This document shows positions 1 through 11,794 of a stretch of DNA of 11,794 nucleotides, piece after piece. Origin of the DNA: Chlorobiota bacterium (lineage in GTDB: Bacteria; Bacteroidota; Ignavibacteria; Ignavibacteriales; Ignavibacteriaceae); contig RHKR01000029.1 of NCBI GenBank assembly GCA_008363265.1, forward strand, positions 1 through 11,794, given 5' to 3'. Numbering within the stretch: the stretch's first letter is position 1; every line of letters starts with the position of its first letter. Under the pieces are notes generated by a model. It had not been told where the DNA came from. It saw only the letters and a list, made by a program, of their open reading frames with translations, and did no database searches. Position numbers and translations under genes: made by a program.

Positions 1-1163
1 TGGCACGGGAGATGGGTAAACCGCTTCCTCAGGGAGTGGCCGAGATCGAAAAGTCGGCATGGGTTTGTGAATACTATGCTGAAAATGGTGAGAATTTCCT
101 GCAGCCGGAACATGTGATAACCGATGCCGCCAAAAGCTTCATCGCATATCAACCCCTTGGTACAATCCTGGCCATCATGCCTTGGAATTTTCCATTTTGG
201 CAGGTTTTCCGTTTTGCTGCTCCGGCACTGATGGCGGGGAATTGCGGCATTCTGAAGCATTCACCAAACGTGACAGGATGTGCTCTTGAGATAGAAAAAC
301 TAATTTTGGAGGCCGGTTTTCCGGCAAATGTTTTCAGCACTGTGATCGTGGAAGTTACGGATGTGGAGGCGATGATCAGGAATGAGAGGATAGCCGCAGT
401 TACTCTTACGGGCAGCACAAGGGCAGGGAGGTCCGTGGCTACAATCGCAGGGAGTGAAATTAAAAAGTGCGTTCTCGAACTCGGCGGAAGCGATCCTTAC
501 ATAGTTACAGATACCGCTGATATCGAATCAGCCGCAAAAGCATGCATCACAGGAAGGTTCCTGAACGCGGGACAGAGTTGCATTGCAGCTAAAAGACTGC
601 TCGTTTTTGAGAAAGTATACGAAGAGTTCAAGGCGGAGTTTCTTAAACTTGCATATGATCTGAAAGTGGGGGATCCACTGGAAGAAGGGACGTTCATTGG
701 TCCCATGGCAAGGGAAGATCTTAGGGAAGCACTTCACACCCAGGTTAATGATTCAGTCGCTCAGGGGGCTAAACCGCTGATCGGAGGATACATTCCTGAT
801 GGCCCGGGATTCTTCTATCCTGTCACCGTGATCGAAGAGTCTGATGAAACGTCTCCGGTGTGTACCGAGGAAATATTTGGCCCAGTTGCGGTTCTGGTAA
901 AAGTCCGCGACATGCAACACGCGCTGGAGATAGCAAACTCTACCCGATATGGACTTGGCGCCGCGGTGTTTACGGGCGACAGTTCTTATGGCGAGAGTGT
1001 GGCACTGAATGAACTTGAGGCCGGTTCATGCTTTGTAAACACATTCGTTAAAAGTGATCCTCGCCTTCCCTTCGGAGGAATAAAAACCTCCGGTTTCGGC
1101 AGGGAATTATCGCTGCAGGGAATCAGAGAGTTTGTTAATGTTAAAACCATTTATGTGGCCTGA
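1..1163 (+). CDS. NAD(P)-dependent aldehyde dehydrogenase, succinate-semialdehyde type (5' end outside window)
   Basis: This enzyme oxidises an aldehyde to a carboxylate with NAD(P)+ through a cysteine thioester. The reading frame is already open at base 3 (Ala-Arg-Glu before the Met at 12). That Met belongs to the conserved E-M-G-K-P motif, so it is internal, and roughly 70 N-terminal residues lie upstream of the window. Counting from that Met, the signatures are PWNFP (57-61), the cofactor-site Lys in LKHSPN (82), the general-base Glu in LELGGSDP (156), the catalytic Cys in NAGQSC (190, bases 579-581), EEIFGP (286-291) and LPFGGIKTSGFGRE (352-365). The GGSDP and SDPRLPFGG strings are typical of the Sad/GabD1 branch, which favours succinate semialdehyde. 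The exact substrate is inferred; glutarate semialdehyde is an alternative given the glutaryl-CoA dehydrogenase gene downstream. The frame is complete at its 3' end and followed by a hairpin. Confidence 0.9.
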   Translation, partial: AREMGKPLPQGVAEIEKSAWVCEYYAENGENFLQPEHVITDAAKSFIAYQPLGTILAIMPWNFPFWQVFRFAAPALMAGNCGILKHSPNVTGCALEIEKLILEAGFPANVFSTVIVEVTDVEAMIRNERIAAVTLTGSTRAGRSVATIAGSEIKKCVLELGGSDPYIVTDTADIESAAKACITGRFLNAGQSCIAAKRLLVFEKVYEEFKAEFLKLAYDLKVGDPLEEGTFIGPMAREDLREALHTQVNDSVAQGAKPLIGGYIPDGPGFFYPVTVIEESDETSPVCTEEIFGPVAVLVKVRDMQHALEIANSTRYGLGAAVFTGDSSYGESVALNELEAGSCFVNTFVKSDPRLPFGGIKTSGFGRELSLQGIREFVNVKTIYVA

Positions 1164-1182
1164 TTCTCAATAAGATCAGGCC
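1157..1182 (+). terminator. Hairpin terminator overlapping the aldehyde dehydrogenase stop codon
   Basis: GGCCTGAT (1157-1164) pairs perfectly with ATCAGGCC (1175-1182) around a 10-nt loop. The left arm contains the TGA stop at 1161-1163. The right arm is followed by TCTTCGATCC, which is only weakly T-rich, so termination may be partial. The same GGCCTCTT junction occurs after the much stronger hairpin at 9040-9070. Confidence 0.55.
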
Positions 1183-1246
1183 TCTTCGATCCCTCATAAC
1201 TGCCACCAAAAAACCGCTTGTAATCTCCCGGAATCATTAGATTCCA

Positions 1247-1278
1247 TTTGCCCACCTCTCATTAAAACCTTAACTTTA
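1247..1278 (+). promoter_or_regulatory. Possible Bacteroidota-type promoter for the glutaryl-CoA dehydrogenase operon
   Basis: TTTG at 1247-1250 is followed after 20 bases by TAACTTTA at 1271-1278. This is one mismatch from the TAnnTTTG -7 element used with a TTTG -33 element in Bacteroides. The position, about 50-80 bases before the likely start codon, is suitable. The match is short and assumes this type of sigma factor, so it is tentative. It overlaps the palindrome at 1271-1284. Confidence 0.3.
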
Positions 1279-1284
1279 AAGTTA
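1271..1284. promoter_or_regulatory. Perfect 14-bp palindrome upstream of the operon (candidate operator)
   Basis: TAACTTTAAAGTTA is its own reverse complement. It lies 41 bases before the ATG at 1326 and overlaps the proposed -7 element, where a repressor could block initiation. It is AT-rich, so chance occurrence is possible; no regulator gene is visible nearby. Confidence 0.3.
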
Positions 1285-1315
1285 TTATTTTCAAAAAAAT
1301 GCATATCAATTATAC

Positions 1316-1320
1316 AGGAG
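1316..1320 (+). promoter_or_regulatory. Ribosome binding site that fixes the glutaryl-CoA dehydrogenase start
   Basis: AGGAG at 1316-1320 sits 5 bases before the ATG at 1326. The upstream in-frame ATG at 1299 has only an A-rich run before it, and its nine extra codons would contain this Shine-Dalgarno sequence. The start at 1326 is therefore preferred. Confidence 0.75.
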
Positions 1321-1325
1321 ATCAA

Positions 1326-2495
1326 ATGTCCGGTTATAGCGGTGTCGACTATTTTAACATAGACTTGTTATTATCAGATGAAGAGAAGATGGTTAGGGAA
1401 ATGGTACGGGATTTTGTTGAAGATAACATCATTCCGGTGATAGAAAAGCATTACAGGGAGGGTACCTTTCCAATGGATCTGATCCCCAAAATGGGTGAGA
1501 TCGGTCTGTTCGGTGCAAACCTTCCATCTGAGTACGGCGGAGCCGACATGAACAACGTTGCTTACGGTCTTGTTATGCAGGAACTTGAGAGAGGCGACAG
1601 TGGTGTACGAAGTTTCGTATCAGTACAGAGCGCCCTTGTAATGTACCCGATCTACACATTTGGAAGCGAGGAACAGAGAAGGAAATGGCTGCCAAAACTC
1701 GCGAAAGGTGAACTGATCGGCTGCTTTGGTTTAACAGAGCCCGATTTTGGTTCCAACCCCGGCGGTATGGTAACTAAAGCCGAAAGAACCGAAGGGGGTT
1801 ACATTCTGAATGGTGCCAAGATGTGGATCACCAATGGTACACTTGCAGATGTCGCTGTTGTCTGGGCGAAACTAGACGGCAAAGTGGCAGGCTTCCTTGT
1901 TGAAAAAGGAATGAAAGGTTTTACCGCCCCTGAAATGAAGGGCAAACACTCACTCAGAGCATCAGTAACTTCTGAACTGGTATTCGATTCCGTCTTCATC
2001 CCTGAAGAGAACAGACTTCCTAAAGCAGAAGGATTAAAAGCACCATTAATGTGCCTCAATCAGGCAAGATACGGAATCGCCTGGGGTGTCGTTGGATCGG
2101 CAATGTCATGCTATGATTCATCATTGAAATATGCCCTTTCAAGGGTTCAGTTCTCGAAGCCGATTGCGGGTTATCAGATGACCCAGGAAAAACTGGTACA
2201 TATGGTCACCGAGATCACAAAAGCCCAGCTAATGAACCTGCAACTTGGAAGACTTAAAGATTCCGGCGATCTGAGATTCCAGCAGGTCTCAATGGCAAAG
2301 CGAAACAACTGTGACATGGCTCTAAACATCGCCAGAATGGCCAGAGGTATTCATGGTGCAAATGGTATACTTGACGAATATCCGGTTATGCGTCATGCGA
2401 ATAATCTTGAGTCGGTAATAACCTATGAAGGAACGCACGAGATGCACACCCTGATCATTGGTGAAGACATCACCGGCATTGCTGCTTTTAATTAA
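1326..2495 (+). CDS. gcdH: Glutaryl-CoA dehydrogenase (acyl-CoA dehydrogenase family)
   Basis: This FAD flavoprotein of 389 residues oxidises and decarboxylates glutaryl-CoA to crotonyl-CoA plus CO2, passing electrons to ETF, in lysine/tryptophan/glutarate breakdown. It is collinear with human GCDH over its whole length. Shared blocks include [11 protein letters not shown] (86-96), [12 protein letters not shown] (134-145), ARYGIAWGV (247-255), QLGRLKD (306-312), KRNNCDMAL (325-333) and ITYEGTHE (365-372). Glu88, Arg95 and Ser96 correspond to human Glu87, Arg94 and Ser95 around the distal carboxylate. Tyr367-Glu368 match Tyr369 and catalytic base Glu370. These residues separate it from ordinary fatty acyl-CoA dehydrogenases and suggest the decarboxylating type. 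The start at 1326 is chosen for its AGGAG. It is the first gene of a tight cluster, with guaB beginning 11 bases after its stop. Confidence 0.92.
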
Positions 2496-2506
2496 GAAGA
2501 AACATA

Positions 2507-3976
2507 ATGAACAACGATAAGTTTGCCTACGAAGGCATTACATTTGATGATGTCCTGATACTGCCTGCGAAGTCATCGGTACTTCCCAAACAGGTCGATA
2601 TCAGCGCGAAACTCACCAGGGGAATATCCCTGAACATCCCGTTTCTCTCTGCGGCGATGGATACTGTAACCGAGAGCAAACTCGCCGTCGCGATCGCAAG
2701 AGAAGGCGGGATCGGCATTCTCCACAAAAATATGTCGATCGATCAGCAGGCAGATGAAGCGGATAAAGTGAAACGCTCTGAAAGCGGCATGATCCAGGAC
2801 CCCGTGACCCTTACGGCCGATAAAAAGGCGGGTGACGCTTTCGAAATGATGCGTAAATACTCTGTTTCAGGCATTCCAATTATCGACGGAGCGGGCAAAC
2901 TTATCGGAATTCTTACCAACCGCGATCTCCGTTTCGTGAAAGATCTTACACTTGGAGTAAACGAACTGATGACCTCGGAAAACCTTGTAACAGCGGAAGT
3001 TGGTACAACTCTCGAGCATGCTGAAGAACTTCTTCATCAGCACAGGATAGAGAAGCTTCCCGTGGTTGACAAAGACGGTTATCTGAAAGGTCTGATCACA
3101 TTTAAAGACATTCAGAAGAAGAAGCATCATCCACACGCCTGCAAGGATGAGAAGGGCCGCCTCAGGGTGGGTGCGGCAGTTGGAGTCAGCGCTGATACTT
3201 TCGAGAGGATCGACAGACTTGTGAAAGCCGGTGTGGATGTGATCGTGATCGACACGGCTCATGGCCACTCAATGGGAGTCATAGGAACCATTAAAGAGGT
3301 TCGTGCCAAATATCCCTCGATACAAATAATCGCAGGAAATATTGCCACTTACGAAGCAGCTCTTGAGCTCTACAACGCCGGGGTCGACGCCGTTAAAGTG
3401 GGAATTGGTCCGGGATCGATCTGTACCACCAGGGTGATCGCGGGCATCGGTGTCCCTCAGATCAGTGCCATTATGGAGGTTTACAGGGCATTAAAGGATA
3501 AAGGTATCCCCATTATTGCTGATGGCGGAATAAAATACTCCGGTGATGTGGCCAAAGCCATCGCTGCCGGAGCAGATACAGTAATGATCGGAGGTCTCTT
3601 TGCCGGAACGGATGAAAGTCCAGGTGAAAAGGTGCTTTATGACGGAAGAAGTTTCAAAGTTTACCGCGGAATGGGTTCGCTTGATGCAATGAAGAAGGGA
3701 AGTGGTGACCGCTACTTCCAGGATCCTGAAACTGAAGTAAATAAACTCGTTCCGGAGGGTGTCGAAGGGATGGTACCGTACAAGGGACCGCTCGCTGATA
3801 CCATCTTTCAGCTGACCGGCGGTCTTCGTGCGTCCATGGGATATGCGGGTGCCGCCACAATCGAAGAATTAAAGACCAAATCAAGATTCGTTAAGATCAC
3901 TGCTGCATCTCTAAAAGAGAGTCATCCTCACGATATCATCGTGACAAAGGAAGCTCCAAATTACCAGAAACTATGA
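2507..3976 (+). CDS. guaB: Inosine-5'-monophosphate dehydrogenase
   Basis: This enzyme converts IMP to XMP with NAD+ and is the committed step of GTP synthesis in the cytosol. The protein has 489 residues, the usual bacterial length. The N-terminal barrel begins with [11 protein letters not shown] (10-20). Two CBS domains are inserted at about residues 95-205 (VSGIPIID near 120; [11 protein letters not shown] at 181-191) and may bind adenine or guanine nucleotides to regulate activity. The barrel resumes at [10 protein letters not shown] (217-226). GPGSICTTR (301-309) contains catalytic Cys306, and the mobile flap Arg402-Tyr403 lies in [17 protein letters not shown] (438-448) is the conserved C-terminal block. 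The Shine-Dalgarno is weak (AAGAAGAA), and coupling to the preceding gene 11 bases away is likely. Its stop codon overlaps the next gene's ATG. Confidence 0.98.
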
Positions 3977-5022
3977 TCCACAAATATCTGAGTTCCCGCT
4001 TCAGATTTCTTTTTGATCTTCTGCACCAAAATGATCTGGAACTGATCGTTATCGCTGACAAAGAGATGATCAGATTTTTCACTGATCTCGTTTCTTCCAA
4101 TGCCTGGCTGGCGGTTTTCCGTAAACATATTTACCTGGTTACTGATCCCCGGTACTTTGGTGATGTCTGGGCTACCGATCACCGGTTGGTTCGGAAAGTG
4201 GTTAAACATCCGGCGGATCTGATCCGTAAACAAATTGAAAGAGCCAAGCAAAGAATCGGTCTGGATGCCGCAACCCTGAATTCGTCTATCGGACTTGATA
4301 CTGTCAGGGCGCGAATTAAAGCAGAAGACATCACGGCTGATCTGGAGAATTTCATCTCAGTTTCCGATAAAGAGACCATGAAACGGTTCAACCGGGCTGC
4401 GGCTATTACAACCAAAATTGAAAACCGGATTGAAAAATTATTGAGGAACGGGATAAGAGAATATACTCTCAGAGCGGAGATCAGTTATTTGATTCATGCT
4501 GCGGGATGTGAGGAAGCGTTTACTCCCATAGTAAGTTTTGGTGAGAATACAGCCCGCATCCATACAGAGCCCACCCGGAAGAAACTGAAGTCTGAAATGC
4601 CTGTGTTGATCGATTTTGGTGTTAATTACATGGGTGTTTCCACTGATATAACCCGTTCATTCTGGTATGGTGAAAATCCAACTGAAGAGTATCAGAATGT
4701 CCGTAAGGCCGTAAAGAAGGCTCTAAAGGCGGCTGAAAACTCAATAAAACCCTCCGTTGAATGTTCTGTCCCGGCTGATATTGCAATGCAGGTTTTAACT
4801 GCCAGTCATCCTGAATCATCCGATTGTCTGCCTCATGCCCTTGGACATGGTATCGGCTACAAGGTGCATCAGGTACCAAGAATATCCGGATATTCAGATG
4901 CAGTTTTTAAGCAAGGACAGATCATTACCCTCGAACCTGGCATCTATATCCCTGACAAATTCGGTGTAAGGATCGAACACGATTATACTGTGACCGATAC
5001 CGGTGTCACCAAACTGATATGA
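3973..5022 (+). CDS. M24-family metallopeptidase (Xaa-Pro aminopeptidase/dipeptidase type)
   Basis: This is a probable cytosolic two-metal peptidase that removes residues next to proline. Its 349 residues match the short, roughly 350-residue PepQ/YpdF-like form. The N-terminal creatinase-type domain (about 1-125) retains an IRFFTDL...LVTDPRY pattern comparable to the family's YLTGF...TDGRY. The pita-bread catalytic domain carries all five metal ligands: Asp214 (LIDFGV), Asp225 (STDITRSF), His292 (LGHGIGY), Glu321 (TLEPGIY) and Glu335 (VRIEHDY). His197 (ARIHTEP) and His299 (KVHQ) fit the usual active-site histidines. No signal peptide is evident. The ATG overlaps the guaB stop as ATGA, indicating translational coupling. 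Aminopeptidase versus dipeptidase activity cannot be told from sequence, so no gene symbol is given. Confidence 0.9.
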
Positions 5023-5030
5023 AATAAGTT

Positions 5031-6314
5031 ATGTATAAAGCCCTGATTTTTGCTTACTATTTTCCTCCCAAGGGTTTGAGTGGTGTACAAAGAACCACAA
5101 AATTTGTAAAATACCTTCCTGACTTTAACTGGAGCCCAACCGTTATCACCACCGGTGACATTGCGTATTTCGCGCATGATCACTCACTGCTCGAGGATCT
5201 GAAAAATGAAAATATCCGCGTGGTCAGAGTAAGTGGCAAAGAGATCAACTCGATCCTTAAGAAAAAGGGAACGATCAAAATGCCGCGTGAGATATTCAGG
5301 AAGTTGTTTGCTTATGTGAGTGCGTGGTTAAACATTACTGATAACAAAAGGTCATGGGCGAGACAGGCCTACAAAGAGGCAAAAAGGCTCTGTTCCGAAG
5401 AGAAATTCGATGTGATTTTCGTTTCGGGACCTCCGTTCAGTTCATTTGAAGCCGCGATCAGGATCAGTGAGGAATTCAAACTTCCTGTTTTCGTCGATTA
5501 TCGTGACCTCTGGTATGGAAACCAGTTCGCAATTTATCCTACACCCTGGCACAGGATCAGCACAAAAAAAGAAGAGGATGCCGCACTACGCAAGGTTGAT
5601 AAAATTGTTGTGACCAACAGGCGCGTTAAAGAGCGGATGATGAAGAATTATCCTTTCCTTACGCATAAAAAGATGCTGATAATTCCTCACGGATACGATG
5701 CTCAGGATGTGGCGGCTGCAGCCCCCGGCGCAAAGAAACTCACAAAAAAGATGGTGATCACTTATTCAGGCATCTTCTATGAGTTCATTACTCCCAAATA
5801 CTTCCTTAAGGCATTCAAACAGATACTGAAAGAGAATCCCGAAGTGGCGGTGAATATCGAGCTCCATTTCATTGGCTTCCTCAGGATAGAGAACAGGCGA
5901 CTGATCAGACGTTACAATCTGCAGAATTTCGTTGTGGAACACAACTATATGGAACATCTGGAAGCTTTGAAGAAAGTGATGGCAAGCGATCTTCTATGGT
6001 TCATGGTCGGTAAGGGACGAAACGCCGATACAATCTCCAGCAGTAAAATGTATGAATATTTTGGAACACTGAAACCGGTACTGGCGTGCCTACCTGACGG
6101 TGCCTTACGGAGCCATCTTGAAGACTACGGGGCATCCTATATTTCCGACCCGTATGATGTAAAAACCATAAAATCAAATATTCTAAAGGCTTACGAGGAT
6201 TACGCAAGCGGCAGGCAACCGGTTCCCGATGAGGAATTTGTTCAAAAATTCGACCGCAGGTTACTCACCGGTCAACTCGCCACAGAATTTCAGTTCTTTC
6301 TAAAGGTGCATTAA
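5031..6314 (+). CDS. GT4-family glycosyltransferase
   Basis: This is a putative GT-B-fold glycosyltransferase of 427 residues that probably adds a sugar from a nucleotide-sugar donor to a surface glycan or glycolipid. The N-terminus, LIFAYYFPPKGLSGVQR (5-21), followed by FVKYLPDFNWSPTVIT (25-40), is a typical acceptor-domain start for GT4 enzymes of this group and supports the Met at 5031. VFVDYRDLW (153-161) and IIPHGYD (217-223) mark the end of the first Rossmann domain. The C-terminal donor domain runs from about 240 and carries SSSKMYEYFGTLKPVLA (336-352), the usual nucleotide-sugar-binding helix-loop. No transmembrane helix is obvious. The gene begins 8 bases after the peptidase stop, with no strong Shine-Dalgarno, and overlaps purD by one base. 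Donor and acceptor are unknown. Confidence 0.85.
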   Translation: MYKALIFAYYFPPKGLSGVQRTTKFVKYLPDFNWSPTVITTGDIAYFAHDHSLLEDLKNENIRVVRVSGKEINSILKKKGTIKMPREIFRKLFAYVSAWLNITDNKRSWARQAYKEAKRLCSEEKFDVIFVSGPPFSSFEAAIRISEEFKLPVFVDYRDLWYGNQFAIYPTPWHRISTKKEEDAALRKVDKIVVTNRRVKERMMKNYPFLTHKKMLIIPHGYDAQDVAAAAPGAKKLTKKMVITYSGIFYEFITPKYFLKAFKQILKENPEVAVNIELHFIGFLRIENRRLIRRYNLQNFVVEHNYMEHLEALKKVMASDLLWFMVGKGRNADTISSSKMYEYFGTLKPVLACLPDGALRSHLEDYGASYISDPYDVKTIKSNILKAYEDYASGRQPVPDEEFVQKFDRRLLTGQLATEFQFFLKVH

Positions 6315-7594
6315 TGAGAGTCGCGATAATAGGAAGTGGTGGCAGGGAACACGCTCTGGGATACTCGATCGCAGGGTCGGAACTTTGCGAAAAAATCTGG
6401 TTTCTGCCCGGTAACGGTGGAACTTCTTCAATTGGCACCAACGTGTTGATAGATGTAAGAGATCATGCTGCGGTCACTGATTTTATGAAGGAGAACTCGA
6501 TCGACCTGGTGATCATCGGACCTGAGATACCGATCGTTGAGGGACTGGGCGATCATCTCGTAGCTCATGGGTTAAAGGTTTTTGCCCCATCAAAAGAGGC
6601 AGCACGGGTTGAATCAGAGAAATCGTACGCGAAATCATTGATGGTGAAGTACGGGATTCCGACTGCCTCCTTCCGCGAGTTCAGTGCCGTGCAGCACGAC
6701 CAGGCGGTTGAACACCTTAATGCGGTAAATTTTCCTGTTGTGATCAAGGCTGATGGTCTGGCTGCCGGTAAAGGTGTGGTGATCGCGCAAGATATTGACG
6801 AAGCCGTATCAGCAGTGAAAGAGATGATGATCGACCGTGTATTCGGTGGTTCGGGAGACCGGATCATTATTGAAGAATTTATGCAGGGAGAGGAAGCTTC
6901 GATCTTTGCTATTACTGACGGTATGGATTTTATCTGTCTTCCCGCGGCGCAGGACCACAAGAGAATTGGGGATGGGGACACCGGCCCGAACACCGGTGGC
7001 ATGGGAGCCTATTGCCCGGCTCCTCTGATAACGCCTGATCTACAGAGCGAGATAGATAAAACAATCATAAAACCTTTTCTGGATGCTTTGCGGAAAGAGG
7101 GAAACCCATTCACGGGATGCCTTTACGCGGGATTGATGATCACTAAGGAAGGCCCAAAAGTAGTGGAGTTCAACTGCAGGTTCGGCGACCCCGAAACCCA
7201 GGCGGTACTTCCGGTGGTCGAAGGTGACATGTTGAAACTGCTCTATTCAGTAGCTGAAGGAAAACTTGACAGATCGGCTTTCACCGGAACAAAGGGTGCA
7301 GCTGTCTGCGTTGTTGCAGCATCAGGAGGTTATCCGGGTCAGTTTCAGAAAGGATTTCAAGTTGAGGGATTGGAGCAGGCGTCAGAGATAAGTATCGTTT
7401 TTCACGCCGGTACGGAAGTAAAAGATGGTATTGTTTTAACAACGGGGGGACGGGTGCTCGGGATAACCGCCATAAGTGAAGCAGGCGAGATCGGGGAAGC
7501 TGTTGACCTTGCCTACTCTTCAATTGAGAAGATAAATTTCACGGGAATTCACTTCCGGAAAGACATAGGTCACAGGGCGACCCGGAATCAGTAA
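6314..7594 (+). CDS. purD: Phosphoribosylamine--glycine ligase (GAR synthetase)
   Basis: This enzyme joins glycine to 5-phosphoribosylamine with ATP to give GAR, the second step of de novo purine synthesis. The ATP-grasp protein of 426 residues has full family length. Recognised blocks are VAIIGSGGREHALG (3-16), LPGNGGTSS (31-39), the ATP-binding KADGLAAGKGVV (145-156), IIEEFMQGEEAS (185-196), AAQDHKRIGDGDTGPNTGGM (211-230), VVEFNCRFGDPETQ (283-296) with metal-binding Glu and Asn, and the terminal FRKDIGHRA (414-422). TAATG overlaps the glycosyltransferase stop by one base, and AAAGG at 6302-6306 provides a Shine-Dalgarno 7 bases upstream. It appears to be the last gene of the five-gene cluster and shares the purine theme with guaB. 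Confidence 0.98.
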   Translation: MRVAIIGSGGREHALGYSIAGSELCEKIWFLPGNGGTSSIGTNVLIDVRDHAAVTDFMKENSIDLVIIGPEIPIVEGLGDHLVAHGLKVFAPSKEAARVESEKSYAKSLMVKYGIPTASFREFSAVQHDQAVEHLNAVNFPVVIKADGLAAGKGVVIAQDIDEAVSAVKEMMIDRVFGGSGDRIIIEEFMQGEEASIFAITDGMDFICLPAAQDHKRIGDGDTGPNTGGMGAYCPAPLITPDLQSEIDKTIIKPFLDALRKEGNPFTGCLYAGLMITKEGPKVVEFNCRFGDPETQAVLPVVEGDMLKLLYSVAEGKLDRSAFTGTKGAAVCVVAASGGYPGQFQKGFQVEGLEQASEISIVFHAGTEVKDGIVLTTGGRVLGITAISEAGEIGEAVDLAYSSIEKINFTGIHFRKDIGHRATRNQ

Positions 7595-7728: not shown

Positions 7729-9015
7729 ATGGCTGATGCAGGCTTCAACGCCTTTGCGATGGCTCAGGCTCAATTCGATAAAGTGGCAGATCTTCTCGAA
7801 CTCGATGAAGCGACGAGAGATCTGTTAAGAAACCCCCTCAGAGAATATCATTTCAGTATATCAGTAAAGATGGATGACGGTAGCCAGAAGGTTTTCCGTG
7901 GATTCAGGTGTCAGCATAATGACGCAAGAGGCCCGGCAAAAGGCGGTATCCGTTTCCACCCACAGGAGACAGTAGATACAGTTCGAGCCCTTTCGATGTG
8001 GATGACATGGAAGTGCGCGGTTGTTGACATTCCGCTCGGTGGCGGCAAGGGCGGTGTTATCTGTAACCCGCACAACCTCAGCATGAGAGAGCAGGAAGCG
8101 ATCTGCCGCGGTTGGGTAAGACAGATCGCCAGAAATGTCGGTCCGATCCAGGACGTACCCGCTCCCGACGTAATGACCAACCCGCAGCACATGCTTTGGA
8201 TGCTCGATGAATATGAAGCTATTCACGGCGGTAAATATCCCGGCTTTATCACCGGTAAACCTGTTGGAATGGGCGGCTCACTCGGAAGAACTGAAGCCAC
8301 CGGTTACGGTGTGATCTTCACCCTCCGCGAAGCTCTCAAACTTAAAGGCGTTGATCCCAAGGATACCACTGCCAGTGTTCAGGGCTTCGGAAACGTTTCT
8401 CAGTACGCGATCAAACTCTACACCCAGCTTGGTGGAAAAGTAATCTCAGTTTCCAGCTGGGATGAAGAAGATCAGGCTTCATACACATTCAGAAGACTTT
8501 CCGGCATCGACCTTCAGGAACTGCTTGGAATCACCAACAAGTTCGGTGGAATCAACAAAGACAAAGCGAAACAACTCGGATACGAAGTACTCCCCGGTGA
8601 TCAGTGGATCGAACAGGATGTAGACATCCTCATTCCTGCCGCCCTTGAGAACCAGATCAGGGAAGACAATGTTGTGAAGATCAGTCCGAGAGTCAAATTT
8701 GTCGCTGAAGGTGCCAATGGCCCAACCACACCGGCAGCTGACAAATACTTTGAGCAGAAAGGTATTTTTGTTATACCTGACTTCCTCGCAAACGCGGGTG
8801 GTGTTACCTGTAGCTACTTCGAGCAGGTTCAGGGTAACATGAACTACTTCTGGGACAAGGAAGAAGTGCTCTCGAAACTTGACTCGAAAATGACATCAGC
8901 GTTCCATGCTGTGTATGACACTTCTGCAAAGAAGAAGATATACATGAGGGATGCAGCTTATGTTATTGCTATAAGCCGCGTGGCTCAGGCTTGCCACGAC
9001 AGAGGCTGGTGCTGA
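7729..9015 (+). CDS. gdhA: Glutamate dehydrogenase (Glu/Leu/Phe/Val dehydrogenase family)
   Basis: This enzyme reversibly interconverts glutamate with 2-oxoglutarate plus ammonia using NAD(P)(H), probably as a cytosolic hexamer. The protein has 428 residues, typical of the short bacterial and archaeal form. The N-terminal domain has GPAKGGIRFHP (68-78) with Lys71, MTWKCA (92-97) with Lys95, PLGGGKGG (102-109) with catalytic Lys107, and VPAPDV (143-148) with Asp147. The Rossmann domain starts at QGFGNVSQYA (218-227). IPAALENQI (302-310), VAEGANGPTTP (325-335) and PDFLANAGGV (350-359) are family blocks. The segment after the second Rossmann strand reads VSSWDEEDQ (241-249), without the usual D-S-K-G, so cofactor preference cannot be assigned. 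Many codons end in C (AAC, TTC, ATC, CTC), which fits high expression. The gene has its own leader and terminator and looks monocistronic. Confidence 0.96.
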   Translation: MADAGFNAFAMAQAQFDKVADLLELDEATRDLLRNPLREYHFSISVKMDDGSQKVFRGFRCQHNDARGPAKGGIRFHPQETVDTVRALSMWMTWKCAVVDIPLGGGKGGVICNPHNLSMREQEAICRGWVRQIARNVGPIQDVPAPDVMTNPQHMLWMLDEYEAIHGGKYPGFITGKPVGMGGSLGRTEATGYGVIFTLREALKLKGVDPKDTTASVQGFGNVSQYAIKLYTQLGGKVISVSSWDEEDQASYTFRRLSGIDLQELLGITNKFGGINKDKAKQLGYEVLPGDQWIEQDVDILIPAALENQIREDNVVKISPRVKFVAEGANGPTTPAADKYFEQKGIFVIPDFLANAGGVTCSYFEQVQGNMNYFWDKEEVLSKLDSKMTSAFHAVYDTSAKKKIYMRDAAYVIAISRVAQACHDRGWC

Positions 9016-9039: not shown

Positions 9040-9070
9040 GGCCGCCCTGATTAGTCTAATTGGGGCGGCC
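9040..9070 (+). terminator. Strong intrinsic terminator after glutamate dehydrogenase
   Basis: GGCCGCCCTGATTA (9040-9053) pairs over all 14 positions with 9057-9070, leaving a GTC loop. Eight of the pairs at the base are G-C and two in the middle are G-T wobbles. The stem is followed by TCTTTAATTTT. It begins 25 bases after the stop codon at 9013-9015. Confidence 0.92.
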
Positions 9071-9110: not shown

Positions 9111-11794
9111 ATGTCATTTTCCGATCAGTCTTCAAAAATCACCAGCGCTTTAGAAGAGAGAATTAAAGAGATCAACTTCCTGCACGATCTCGAAGACCTC
9201 CTGCACGATCAAACCCTCGTTAAAGAGGATATTTTTCTGATCGTTATCAAGCGGATGAGGTCTGCTTGGCAGTTCCCTGAGCTATGTGAGGTCCGCCTCC
9301 GCTACAGGGATAAAACCTTCGAGACGGGCGGTTATATTGAAGATATGCCGGTGCTCAGTGAAGATCTGGTGGCAGGCGAAAAAATAGTGGGTGACATTCA
9401 GGTTACTTACACGAAAGAAGCACCCATTGCTGAGATCGGACCCTTTCTGAAACAGGAAAAACGGCTGCTTGAAACGATCGCTTTCAGGTTGGGTGATTTC
9501 ATTTTCAACCACCGGCTGAAAAAGAAACTTGACCGCAAGCGTGTGGAAGAAGCTGTGGTCGAAAAAACCGAGTGGCGGATCGTTATCGATATGATCAGAA
9601 AAACAGATCCGGCCCTCTTTATGCGTCTTCTGAGAAAAATGCTCCACCAGCTTAACTGGAAGGGGATCGAGGAAGCAGAAGTGCTGCTTAAAGAGATGAG
9701 CATAGATCTTAAAGGGGAAGAGGAACGGGGTACCGAAGATGAGAACAGGCCTCTTCAGAAAAGGATAATCACTGATTATGATGACTACATTTCATCTATC
9801 CTGAAACTTACCAGCGAAAACTTCACCGAGGAGGAGATACTCTGGAGGGTCCAGAAGTGGATACAGAACGACAACACAAGTTCCCTTATAAAGGTGCTTG
9901 AATCGCAGGACTCATCGCTGGCCGACATTTCGGATGCCATAAGGAGGTTCTACCACATGGCCCCCGAGAAGATCGAACTTTCACCTGCGACGGTGAAGGG
10001 CCTCAGGGTTTCTCTCCTCAGGCGCTTCCTTACCGATGATCTTGATTTTATCCAGATCGCGAAAGATTACGTCAAACTGACCGACTTTCACAAACTTATC
10101 GATAAAATGATCTTCCTGCCGGGAAGTCATGGTAAACTCGGCGGAAAAAGCTCAGGTGTTTTCCTCGCTCACAACATCCTGAAGGCCAGTGTCAGCAGTG
10201 CGGAACTTCCGTTCGAAGTTAAGATACCCAAGACATGGTATCTTACCTCTGACTGTATCATGCAGTTCATTCAGTACAATAATCTGGAAGAGGTTTATGA
10301 ACACAAGTACCGCGATATTGAGGAGATAAGGGTTGAGTACCCTCAGGTTTTACAGTTGTTCAAAGACAGTCAGTTCCCGCCTGATATTCTTAAGGGACTT
10401 TCTGTTGCTCTCGATGATTTTGGTGACAGTCCGATCATCGTGCGAAGCTCCAGCTTGCTCGAGGATCAGGTCGGCTCGGCTTTCTCGGGTAAGTATAAAA
10501 GCCTCTTCCTTGCGAACCAAGGATCGAAGGCTGAGCGTCTCAGCGCTTTAATGGACGCGATTGCCGAGGTCTACGCGTCCACTTTCGGACCTGACCCCAT
10601 AGAATACCGTACCGAGAGGGGACTTATCGATTTCCATGAAGAGATGGGCATCATGATAATGGAAGTTGTAGGCACCCGCGTTGGTGACTACTGGTTTCCC
10701 GCATTTGCCGGTGTGGCTTTCAGCAACAACGAATTCAGGTGGTCGCCAAGGATCAACCGTGAGGATGGACTTGTAAGGCTTGTTCCCGGTCTCGGTACGC
10801 GCGCGGTCGACAGGGTAAGTGATGATTATCCGATCCTGATCGCTCCCGGTCAGCCTAATTTGCGTGTTAACGTGACACTTCAGGAATCGCTTCGGTATTC
10901 TCCTAAAAAGATCGATCTGATCAATCTTAAGACGAACCAGTTCCAGACCATCGATCTTGACACACTTCTGAGCGAAGTGGGCGCTGATTATCCACAGATC
11001 AATAATATTGTATCCGTTGTCTCAAACGGTATGCTGCGCCCTCCGAATCCGCTTCAGGTTGACTATCAGGAAGATGAACTGGTTGTGACATTTGAGGGAA
11101 TGCTGAACAGGTCGCAGTTTCTCCCGAAAATGCACACAATGCTCCAGATACTGCAGAACAAGTTCAAGGTGCCTGTTGACGTGGAATTCGCGAGCGACGG
11201 GAAGGATTTCTATCTGCTGCAATGCCGTCCGCAGAGCTATACCAAGCAAAACACGGCAGATGCCATACCCAAGAACATTCCTGCCGACAGGGTTGTGTTC
11301 TCTGCCTCCAAGCATATCTCAAACGGCAGGGTACCGCCTCTGCGGTTCGTTGTCTATGTTGATCCTGAGGGATACGATTCGCTCGGCTCCAAGGAGGAGA
11401 TGCTTGAAGTTGCCTCCGTTATCGGGAAGTTGAATAAACTTCTCCCGCGCCGGAAATTCATCCTTATGGGCCCAGGGCGATGGGGCAGCAGGGGGGATAT
11501 CAAACTTGGCGTCAGCGTGACATATTCTCAGATCAATAACTGCTCGATGCTGATCGAGATTTCAAAAAAGAAGGGGAATTACAAACCCGATCTGAGTTTC
11601 GGAACGCACTTCTTTCAGGACCTGGTGGAGGCGTCGATAAGGTATCTGCCGCTATTCCTCGACGAGGAACACTCATCGTTCAATGAATCCTTTATAAAGG
11701 ATTCGAGCAATCTTCTTCTGGATATGCTGCCTGAGTACGCGCATCTCCGTAATGTTGTTTATGTGACCGATATCTGGGATGAGTTTGAGGGCGG
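9111..11794 (+). CDS. Sensor-domain/PEP-pyruvate-binding (PPDK_N-type ATP-grasp) fusion protein, 3' end outside window
   Basis: The frame stays open for 894 codons to the window edge. Residues 1-140 resemble a GAF-like sensor module of histidine kinases (ERIKEINFLHDLEDL near 16; AWQFPE 52-57; IGPFLKQEKRLLE 109-121). Residues 141-335 are helical and unassigned (TEWRIVID, LLRKMLHQLNWKGIEEAE). Residues 336-706 are a PPDK/PEP-synthase N-terminal ATP-grasp domain: LGGKSSG with Lys346, IVRSSSLLEDQVGSAFSG with Arg445, LVPGLGTRAVDRVSDDYP (557-574), VDVEFASDG with Glu692, and LLQCRPQ with Gln704 and Arg706. The Glu-12-Gln-2-Arg spacing equals Glu323/Gln335/Arg337 of Clostridium symbiosum PPDK. Residues 707-894 carry GPGRWGS (787-793) and FGTHFFQDL (830-838). 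No PPDK-style TSHAA phosphohistidine motif or PEP-binding barrel is visible in this part. Nucleotide binding is well supported; the reaction and target are unknown. Confidence 0.88.
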   Translation, partial: MSFSDQSSKITSALEERIKEINFLHDLEDLLHDQTLVKEDIFLIVIKRMRSAWQFPELCEVRLRYRDKTFETGGYIEDMPVLSEDLVAGEKIVGDIQVTYTKEAPIAEIGPFLKQEKRLLETIAFRLGDFIFNHRLKKKLDRKRVEEAVVEKTEWRIVIDMIRKTDPALFMRLLRKMLHQLNWKGIEEAEVLLKEMSIDLKGEEERGTEDENRPLQKRIITDYDDYISSILKLTSENFTEEEILWRVQKWIQNDNTSSLIKVLESQDSSLADISDAIRRFYHMAPEKIELSPATVKGLRVSLLRRFLTDDLDFIQIAKDYVKLTDFHKLIDKMIFLPGSHGKLGGKSSGVFLAHNILKASVSSAELPFEVKIPKTWYLTSDCIMQFIQYNNLEEVYEHKYRDIEEIRVEYPQVLQLFKDSQFPPDILKGLSVALDDFGDSPIIVRSSSLLEDQVGSAFSGKYKSLFLANQGSKAERLSALMDAIAEVYASTFGPDPIEYRTERGLIDFHEEMGIMIMEVVGTRVGDYWFPAFAGVAFSNNEFRWSPRINREDGLVRLVPGLGTRAVDRVSDDYPILIAPGQPNLRVNVTLQESLRYSPKKIDLINLKTNQFQTIDLDTLLSEVGADYPQINNIVSVVSNGMLRPPNPLQVDYQEDELVVTFEGMLNRSQFLPKMHTMLQILQNKFKVPVDVEFASDGKDFYLLQCRPQSYTKQNTADAIPKNIPADRVVFSASKHISNGRVPPLRFVVYVDPEGYDSLGSKEEMLEVASVIGKLNKLLPRRKFILMGPGRWGSRGDIKLGVSVTYSQINNCSMLIEISKKKGNYKPDLSFGTHFFQDLVEASIRYLPLFLDEEHSSFNESFIKDSSNLLLDMLPEYAHLRNVVYVTDIWDEFEG

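Follow-up and report, generated by a model that had tools for sequence, protein, structure and literature searches.

What does a protein act on if it carries a histidine-kinase-style sensor module in front of the ATP-grasp domain of pyruvate phosphate dikinase (PPDK)? The question is raised by the last gene in an 11,794-nucleotide stretch of DNA from a Chlorobiota bacterium (NCBI GenBank assembly GCA_008363265.1, contig RHKR01000029.1, forward strand), referred to here as the window. A first-pass annotation, made from the sequence of the window, had proposed a signal-gated phosphotransfer or nucleotide-sensing protein and left its acceptor unnamed. A signal-gated protein that uses ATP or senses nucleotides is still the best reading, but the annotation overlooked a probable target, the glutamate dehydrogenase (GDH) encoded next to it. 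The partnership of the gene with its GDH is strongly supported. That its product is a dedicated regulator of the GDH encoded just upstream, gated by a signal and using ATP, is our preferred explanation, held at about even odds.

The two genes are located as follows.

7729..9015, + strand: GDH of the ELFV family, 428 amino acids (aa) (PF00208, PF02812), the linked partner gene
9111..11792, + strand: sensor–PPDK_N gene, ATG start, 894 codons, open frame running past the contig end

The window is the entire contig C61 of the assembly (our G000), which holds no sequence 3' of it; the gene is thus truncated at the contig end. A full-length relative, P0001 (1061 aa), is 99% identical over the 894 residues.

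Linkage of the gene to glutamate dehydrogenase

Among 59 related genomes, 20 carry the gene (counted at 1000 bits or more), and the identical 20 carry a close homologue of the window GDH (counted at 75% identity or more; p = 4e-16). The GDH lies upstream, on the same strand and within 2.1 kb of the gene, in 18 of the 20. In G043 it is upstream too, at a distance of about 6.9 kb; a receiver-type paralogue, a short paralogue and a second GDH intervene. G045 has the gene on one contig, which ends just past the short paralogue, and the GDH on another. The paralogues in these 59 genomes were counted in the same way, leaving out 11 match rows that are sensor-only or weak. A GDH was found within 3 kb of 49 of the 65 receiver-type paralogues, always on the same strand, and likewise within 3 kb of 8 of 10 short paralogues and one of two fragments. 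As an internal control, 12 GDH-family genes at 40–45% identity were examined; one lies near a receiver-type gene and none near a window-type gene. A second control compared all neighbours (429, around 78 core genes) in 60 loci (L029–L087 and L006). The GDH family occurred in 41 of these loci; two families, assigned by eye to histidine biosynthesis, came next with 11 loci each.

The link was followed across three phyla, Bacteroidota, Acidobacteriota and Bacillota, where Bacteroidota is meant in a wide sense that includes the window's group, as inferred from phylum search results. A set of 120 loci was picked from five match tables, mostly from their top rows, and is not a random sample. The newly added loci comprise 20 of the 23 places of one table (L006 is another of them; the other two were omitted), 20 of the 27 places of a further table (four more were already in the set; three were left out) and 40 Acidobacteriota places (32 window type, 8 receiver type). 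In this set, 59 of the 71 window-type (sensor-type) genes are preceded, on the same strand and at no more than 3 kb, by a window-type GDH. The nearest same-strand GDH is window-type for 58 of the 71, while L148 has a nearer GDH-like match as well as a window-type GDH 500 bases upstream. The other 12 genes fall into several groups: L145 and L177 begin at a contig end; in L043, L131 and L132 a short paralogue is followed by the end of the contig; for L033, L151, L152 and L153 the GDH is farther away in the same cluster; and three are exceptions that we weigh below.

The type of gene and the class of GDH were found to match. The nearest same-strand GDH was window-type for 58 sensor-type genes and GDH2-type for none, whereas for the 46 receiver-type genes it was GDH2 in 30 cases, GDH3 in four and window-type in three, with no GDH for nine. 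GDH2 was nearest for three of the 11 KaiC-like genes, and window-type GDH for 14 of the 27 short members. The receiver label derives from PF00072, which scores 35.7 bits in L033, above the cut-off, and is weak in L085; the KaiC-like label is a by-eye reading of an N-terminus in which Pfam found nothing.

In Acidobacteriota, 37 of 199 genomes contain this GDH class, and 34 of these also carry the gene at 640 bits or more, a level reached in 37 genomes altogether. The Fisher test for co-occurrence gives p = 2e-31, from a table entered by hand and with the 640-bit cut chosen by the analyst. Among the leftover GDH genomes, G369 has gene matches in two pieces on two contigs, and in G449 and G482 the 3' end of the GDH is less than 0.9 kb from the contig end; in the leftover gene genomes (G556, G491 and G165) the gene lies near a contig end. 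Weaker members of 420–584 bits are present without this GDH class in G367, G483, G508, G488 and G377. Receiver-type or short members occur in 55 of 395 Bacteroidota genomes. Another 20 Bacteroidota loci hold 22 receiver-type genes, 14 of which have a same-strand GDH within 3 kb and three of which have none (L197, L198, L202). The remaining five have a GDH within 1.8 kb on the opposite strand only, so that proximity is kept despite orientation.

Several loci contain further genes or repeated units. A short paralogue of some 580 aa, made up of PPDK_N and the C-terminal domain only, lies directly upstream of the sensor-type gene in L033–L037 and L043. Their open frames overlap by 4–7 bases and may form a three-gene unit with the GDH. 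A 416-aa gene, cyclase-like by eye, is placed between the GDH and the sensor-type gene in L005 (6634–7884) and L032 (5159–6409). Alternating arrays of GDH and receiver-type PPDK_N genes occur in L074, L075, L077 and L082, where one cluster can hold up to three GDH from two classes together with two paralogues. In Bacillota, proteins of 861–899 aa with a KaiC/RAD55-like N-terminus (by eye) and PPDK_N adjoin a GDH2-class gene (L053, L054, L055); short proteins with PPDK_N and the C-terminal domain have no GDH nearby in L057–L065 and must have another role or act at a distance.

Domain structure of the protein

The coding sequence can be divided into four parts, the last of which contains two motifs.

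9111..9590, + strand: sensor domain, residues 1–160, also found in histidine kinases
9591..10136, + strand: residues 161–342, of no known family (no Pfam match above cut-off; helical by eye only)
10137..11279, + strand: PPDK_N ATP-grasp domain, residues 343–723, with K346, R445, E692, Q704 and R706
11292..11792, + strand: unnamed C-terminal domain, residues 728–894 (to about 930 in P0001)
11469..11489, + strand: GPGRWGS motif (GxGRWG[ST] in the family), residues 787–793
11595..11615, + strand: SFGTHFF (G[ST]HFF in the family), residues 829–835, with the invariant His833 (codon 11607–11609)

The earlier description of the N-terminus as a histidine-kinase-style sensor proved correct, because residues 1–160 recur in proteins with HisKA, HisKA_2 or HATPase_c. 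Seven such proteins were found and four scanned (from L088, L090, L091 and L008). Sensor histidine kinases (L088, L090, L008) share this N-terminal domain with the window protein, which differs in having PPDK_N as its output, without HisKA or HATPase_c; both are also absent from P0001 at E ≤ 1 in Pfam. No GAF or PAS domain was found by Pfam in residues 1–342 of the window protein at E ≤ 1, and a PDB search with the sensor alignment returned a best E of 0.055, which is not credible. The PPDK_N assignment holds as well. The match to PF01326 (E = 4.7e-58; 197.5 bits, cut-off 27) is far better than chance, and the five residues singled out by the first-pass annotation (Lys346, Arg445, Glu692, Gln704 and Arg706) are all present. 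In alignment A2 (132 proteins), K346, R445, E692 and Q704 show no variation, and R706 is retained in 90% or more.

The same annotation had seen no TSHAA-type His motif over the 188 residues that follow. No His domain of the PPDK type was detected, but a different invariant motif, G831-T-H833-F-F, is found within the window about 127 residues past Arg706. It belongs to the C-terminal domain, which is the family's own and had been overlooked. Across 132 aligned proteins His833 never varies, and 90 of 91 proteins over four architectures keep it (sensor 33/33, receiver 30/30, KaiC-like 7/7, short 20/21), where types were set by length and a few sensor-type proteins therefore fall in other classes. 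The ATP-grasp residues are likewise kept across these architectures. PPDK_N followed by GxGRWG[ST] and G[ST]HFF, in a gene beside a GDH gene, characterises the GDH-linked PPDK_N family that we propose, and the window gene shows this combination.

We considered whether the C-terminal part hides a PPDK-type His domain and rejected this. In hhalign, the C-terminal domain gave probabilities of 0.1% against the mobile His domain of PPDK (9 sequences) and 0.7% against enzyme-I-sized proteins (19 sequences), resembling the negative controls (0.3% and 0.1%), while the positive control reached 97.5%. The comparison with PPDK is a weak negative, because its nine sequences are closely similar to one another. 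A PDB search with the C-terminal alignment gave a best E of 0.093, again not credible.

The phosphoenolpyruvate (PEP)-utiliser His domain and PEP-binding barrel, which the first-pass annotation had not seen in the window, are absent: neither PF00391 nor PF02896 matches the 894-residue window protein or the 1061-residue P0001 at E ≤ 1. That annotation had allowed that these domains might follow beyond the window and make the protein an N-terminally extended PEP synthase; full-length P0001 contains neither. In G000, PF00391 has two matches, on C502 (a 937-codon frame that also carries PF01326) and C179 (590 codons), and none on C61. In a PF00391 search of 31 genomes, no match fell at the places listed for the window's gene type. 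The NCBIfam PEP synthase model gives P0001 58 bits against an equivalog cut-off of 739.75. PEP synthase and PPDK thus share with the window family the PPDK_N ATP-grasp domain and its catalytic residues; the family differs by the absence of PF00391 and PF02896, a C-terminal domain of its own with G[ST]HFF, a sensor in front and a GDH neighbour.

Beyond the point that corresponds to the window's end, relatives carry a nucleotidyltransferase domain (PF01909, PF18765). The tail of P0001 is a decayed, nucleotidyltransferase-derived domain without the GS...DxD motif, and the window stops before it. At least 240 relatives were listed, in two lists of 120, and one relative is too short to judge. Among the matches listed, the motif, overlooked earlier, is present in 228 of 239 judgeable relatives and absent in 11, namely P0001–P0009, P0016 and P0176, the last of which looks frameshifted. 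The nine rows without the motif form one clade with support 100/99 in a tree of 35 proteins (residues 1–915). In the 61 loci with both genes, counted at any distance, the nucleotidyltransferase is intact in 39, decayed in 7, cut short in 13 and running off the contig in 2; 59 of the loci were classed by end and motif. The nucleotidyltransferase is thus an accessory part, which has decayed or gone missing in at least two lineages. The tail of relatives is similar to minimal nucleotidyltransferases of the MntA type (NF047752; 26.7 bits for P0136, cut-off 60), from which the P0001 tail differs in lacking the GS...DxD motif. Some Acidobacteriota copies also lack the sensor, with matches beginning near residue 150. 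Those at L143 and L151–L155 have neither sensor nor nucleotidyltransferase and are still in loci with window-type GDH.

A role in anti-phage defence was rejected. P0001 has no match to the PADLOC defence models at E ≤ 0.1, and P0014 matches five PADLOC PDC-S09 models in its nucleotidyltransferase part only. P0014 is also an example of the unnamed PEP/pyruvate-binding proteins that the first-pass annotation mentioned for Bacteroidota, which do exist under that name.

Possible action on glutamate dehydrogenase

GDH sits where carbon and nitrogen metabolism meet. The GDH of Bacteroides fragilis is reversibly inactivated in vivo, and we know of no account of how GDH activity is switched in many anaerobes. 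Given its nearly constant GDH neighbour in three phyla, the protein is probably an unrecognised regulator of nitrogen handling. We infer that it acts on GDH and regulates it, and that the N-terminus gates this action. The N-terminal domain would sense a signal, the identity of which is a matter of guesswork. The PPDK_N domain would bind and probably split ATP, if our guess at its chemistry is right, and the C-terminal domain with GxGRWG[ST] and His833 might help in transfer or make contact with GDH. The result would most likely be reversible covalent switching of GDH, perhaps phosphorylation through a phospho-His, and in relatives with an intact nucleotidyltransferase perhaps nucleotidylylation of GDH. 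GlnE is an adenylyltransferase that acts on glutamine synthetase, and the proposed switching of GDH may follow a similar logic. By description, both would be nucleotidyltransferase-bearing regulators of a nitrogen enzyme; the window family differs in that its main domain is PPDK_N and the nucleotidyltransferase has decayed in the window clade. A further point in favour of a GDH regulator is that trans-acting gene(s) downstream of gdhA in Bacteroides thetaiotaomicron reportedly affect GDH activity, going by the title of a 1996 study by Baggio and Morrison. The likeness lies in a downstream gene that affects GDH activity; that gene would at best be a receiver-type paralogue, not the window protein. 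More broadly, and with odds that we see as somewhat poorer than even, an undescribed and widespread class may exist in which a PPDK-type ATP-grasp domain, together with its own His-bearing domain that replaces the PEP machinery, switches GDH covalently and reversibly, the sensor, receiver and KaiC-like versions each serving their own GDH class.

A number of observations weigh against a GDH regulator. The linkage could also mean a shared pathway. It plainly fails at L087, L124 and L149; the genomes of the latter two carry another copy of the gene near a GDH. In the related genomes, 16 of the 65 receiver-type paralogues have no GDH within 3 kb. In the 120 loci, 8 of 11 KaiC-like genes and 13 of 27 short members lack a same-strand GDH within 3 kb, so the ATP-grasp core does not always go with GDH. 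No GDH residue changed together with the decay or loss of the nucleotidyltransferase at the thresholds used. Lastly, the two genes are separated by a hairpin.

9040..9070, + strand: strong, terminator-like hairpin in the gap between GDH and the gene, ending in a T-rich tail; the window has two such sites against a shuffle mean of 1.5, not above chance

A comparable hairpin was seen by eye between the genes in 9 of 12 folded intergenic regions (the window, and in its phylum the eight loci L029, L030, L031, L038 and L044–L047), and the GDH and the gene therefore need not share one transcript. No such hairpin is found in L048 and L049 from Bacillota, where the gaps between the genes are 19 and 47 bases, and the intergenic region of L006 forms a long fold with no evident T tract. 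With a hairpin in between, more GDH than second protein may be produced, which would fit an enzyme and its regulator.

Four alternatives to a covalent regulator were considered. In the first, the regulator is non-covalent: the ATP-grasp domain would only sense ATP, ADP or AMP, and the protein would bind GDH as a signal- and energy-dependent partner. The same linkage data fit this mode of action, as do the missing PPDK His domain and PEP barrel and, from the tally of 61 loci, the dispensable nucleotidyltransferase. The ATP-grasp residues and His833 are nevertheless strictly kept, seemingly beyond the needs of nucleotide sensing, and we consider non-covalent regulation unlikely. It is less probable again that the protein is a metabolic enzyme, an ATP-dependent ligase or phosphotransferase in the GDH pathway that works on glutamate, 2-oxoglutarate or ammonia. 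Other PPDK_N proteins do have small-molecule substrates, and NCBIfam finds weak similarity to PEP synthase, to the rifamycin phosphotransferase Rph and to the prodigiosin ligase PigC, all far under cut-off. The similarity of P0001 to Rph and PigC is in the ATP-grasp domain, confined to residues about 369–523, and amounts to 30 and 40 bits against cut-offs of 999 and 1300. Sensor and receiver N-termini and the matching of GDH classes point instead to control.

That the genes are adjacent by inheritance only is highly improbable. Same-genus loci share much of their gene order, and the distances of 55 GDH–gene pairs correlate with r = 0.69, above all 2000 permutations (largest 0.20), a correlation that is expected from vertical descent and can arise from it alone. 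Against this, 41 of 60 loci have a GDH neighbour while the next family reaches 11, the link extends to Acidobacteriota and Bacillota, and the five opposite-strand loci keep receiver-type gene and GDH within 1.8 kb. An N-terminally extended PEP synthase cut by the window's end, as the PPDK_N match and source names such as pyruvate, water dikinase might suggest, is ruled out by the full-length relative without PF00391 and PF02896, the PF00391 search and the PEP synthase score far under cut-off.

Should the partnership prove regulatory, it would give many bacteria a candidate GDH switch and the trans-acting gene(s) of 1996 a candidate class. Source records name members of the family, for example, pyruvate, phosphate dikinase or phosphoenolpyruvate synthase, and these proteins may consequently be miscounted as gluconeogenic enzymes. 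Searches of an open-access library that lacks most subscription journals listed, by titles and abstracts, no description of the GDH link. PMC4539542 cites Yamamoto 1987, Abrahams and Abratt 1998, and Baggio and Morrison 1996. The rest of the window (3–7594) holds ordinary metabolic genes, encoding an aldehyde dehydrogenase (cut), an acyl-CoA dehydrogenase, IMP dehydrogenase, an M24 peptidase, a glycosyltransferase and PurD.

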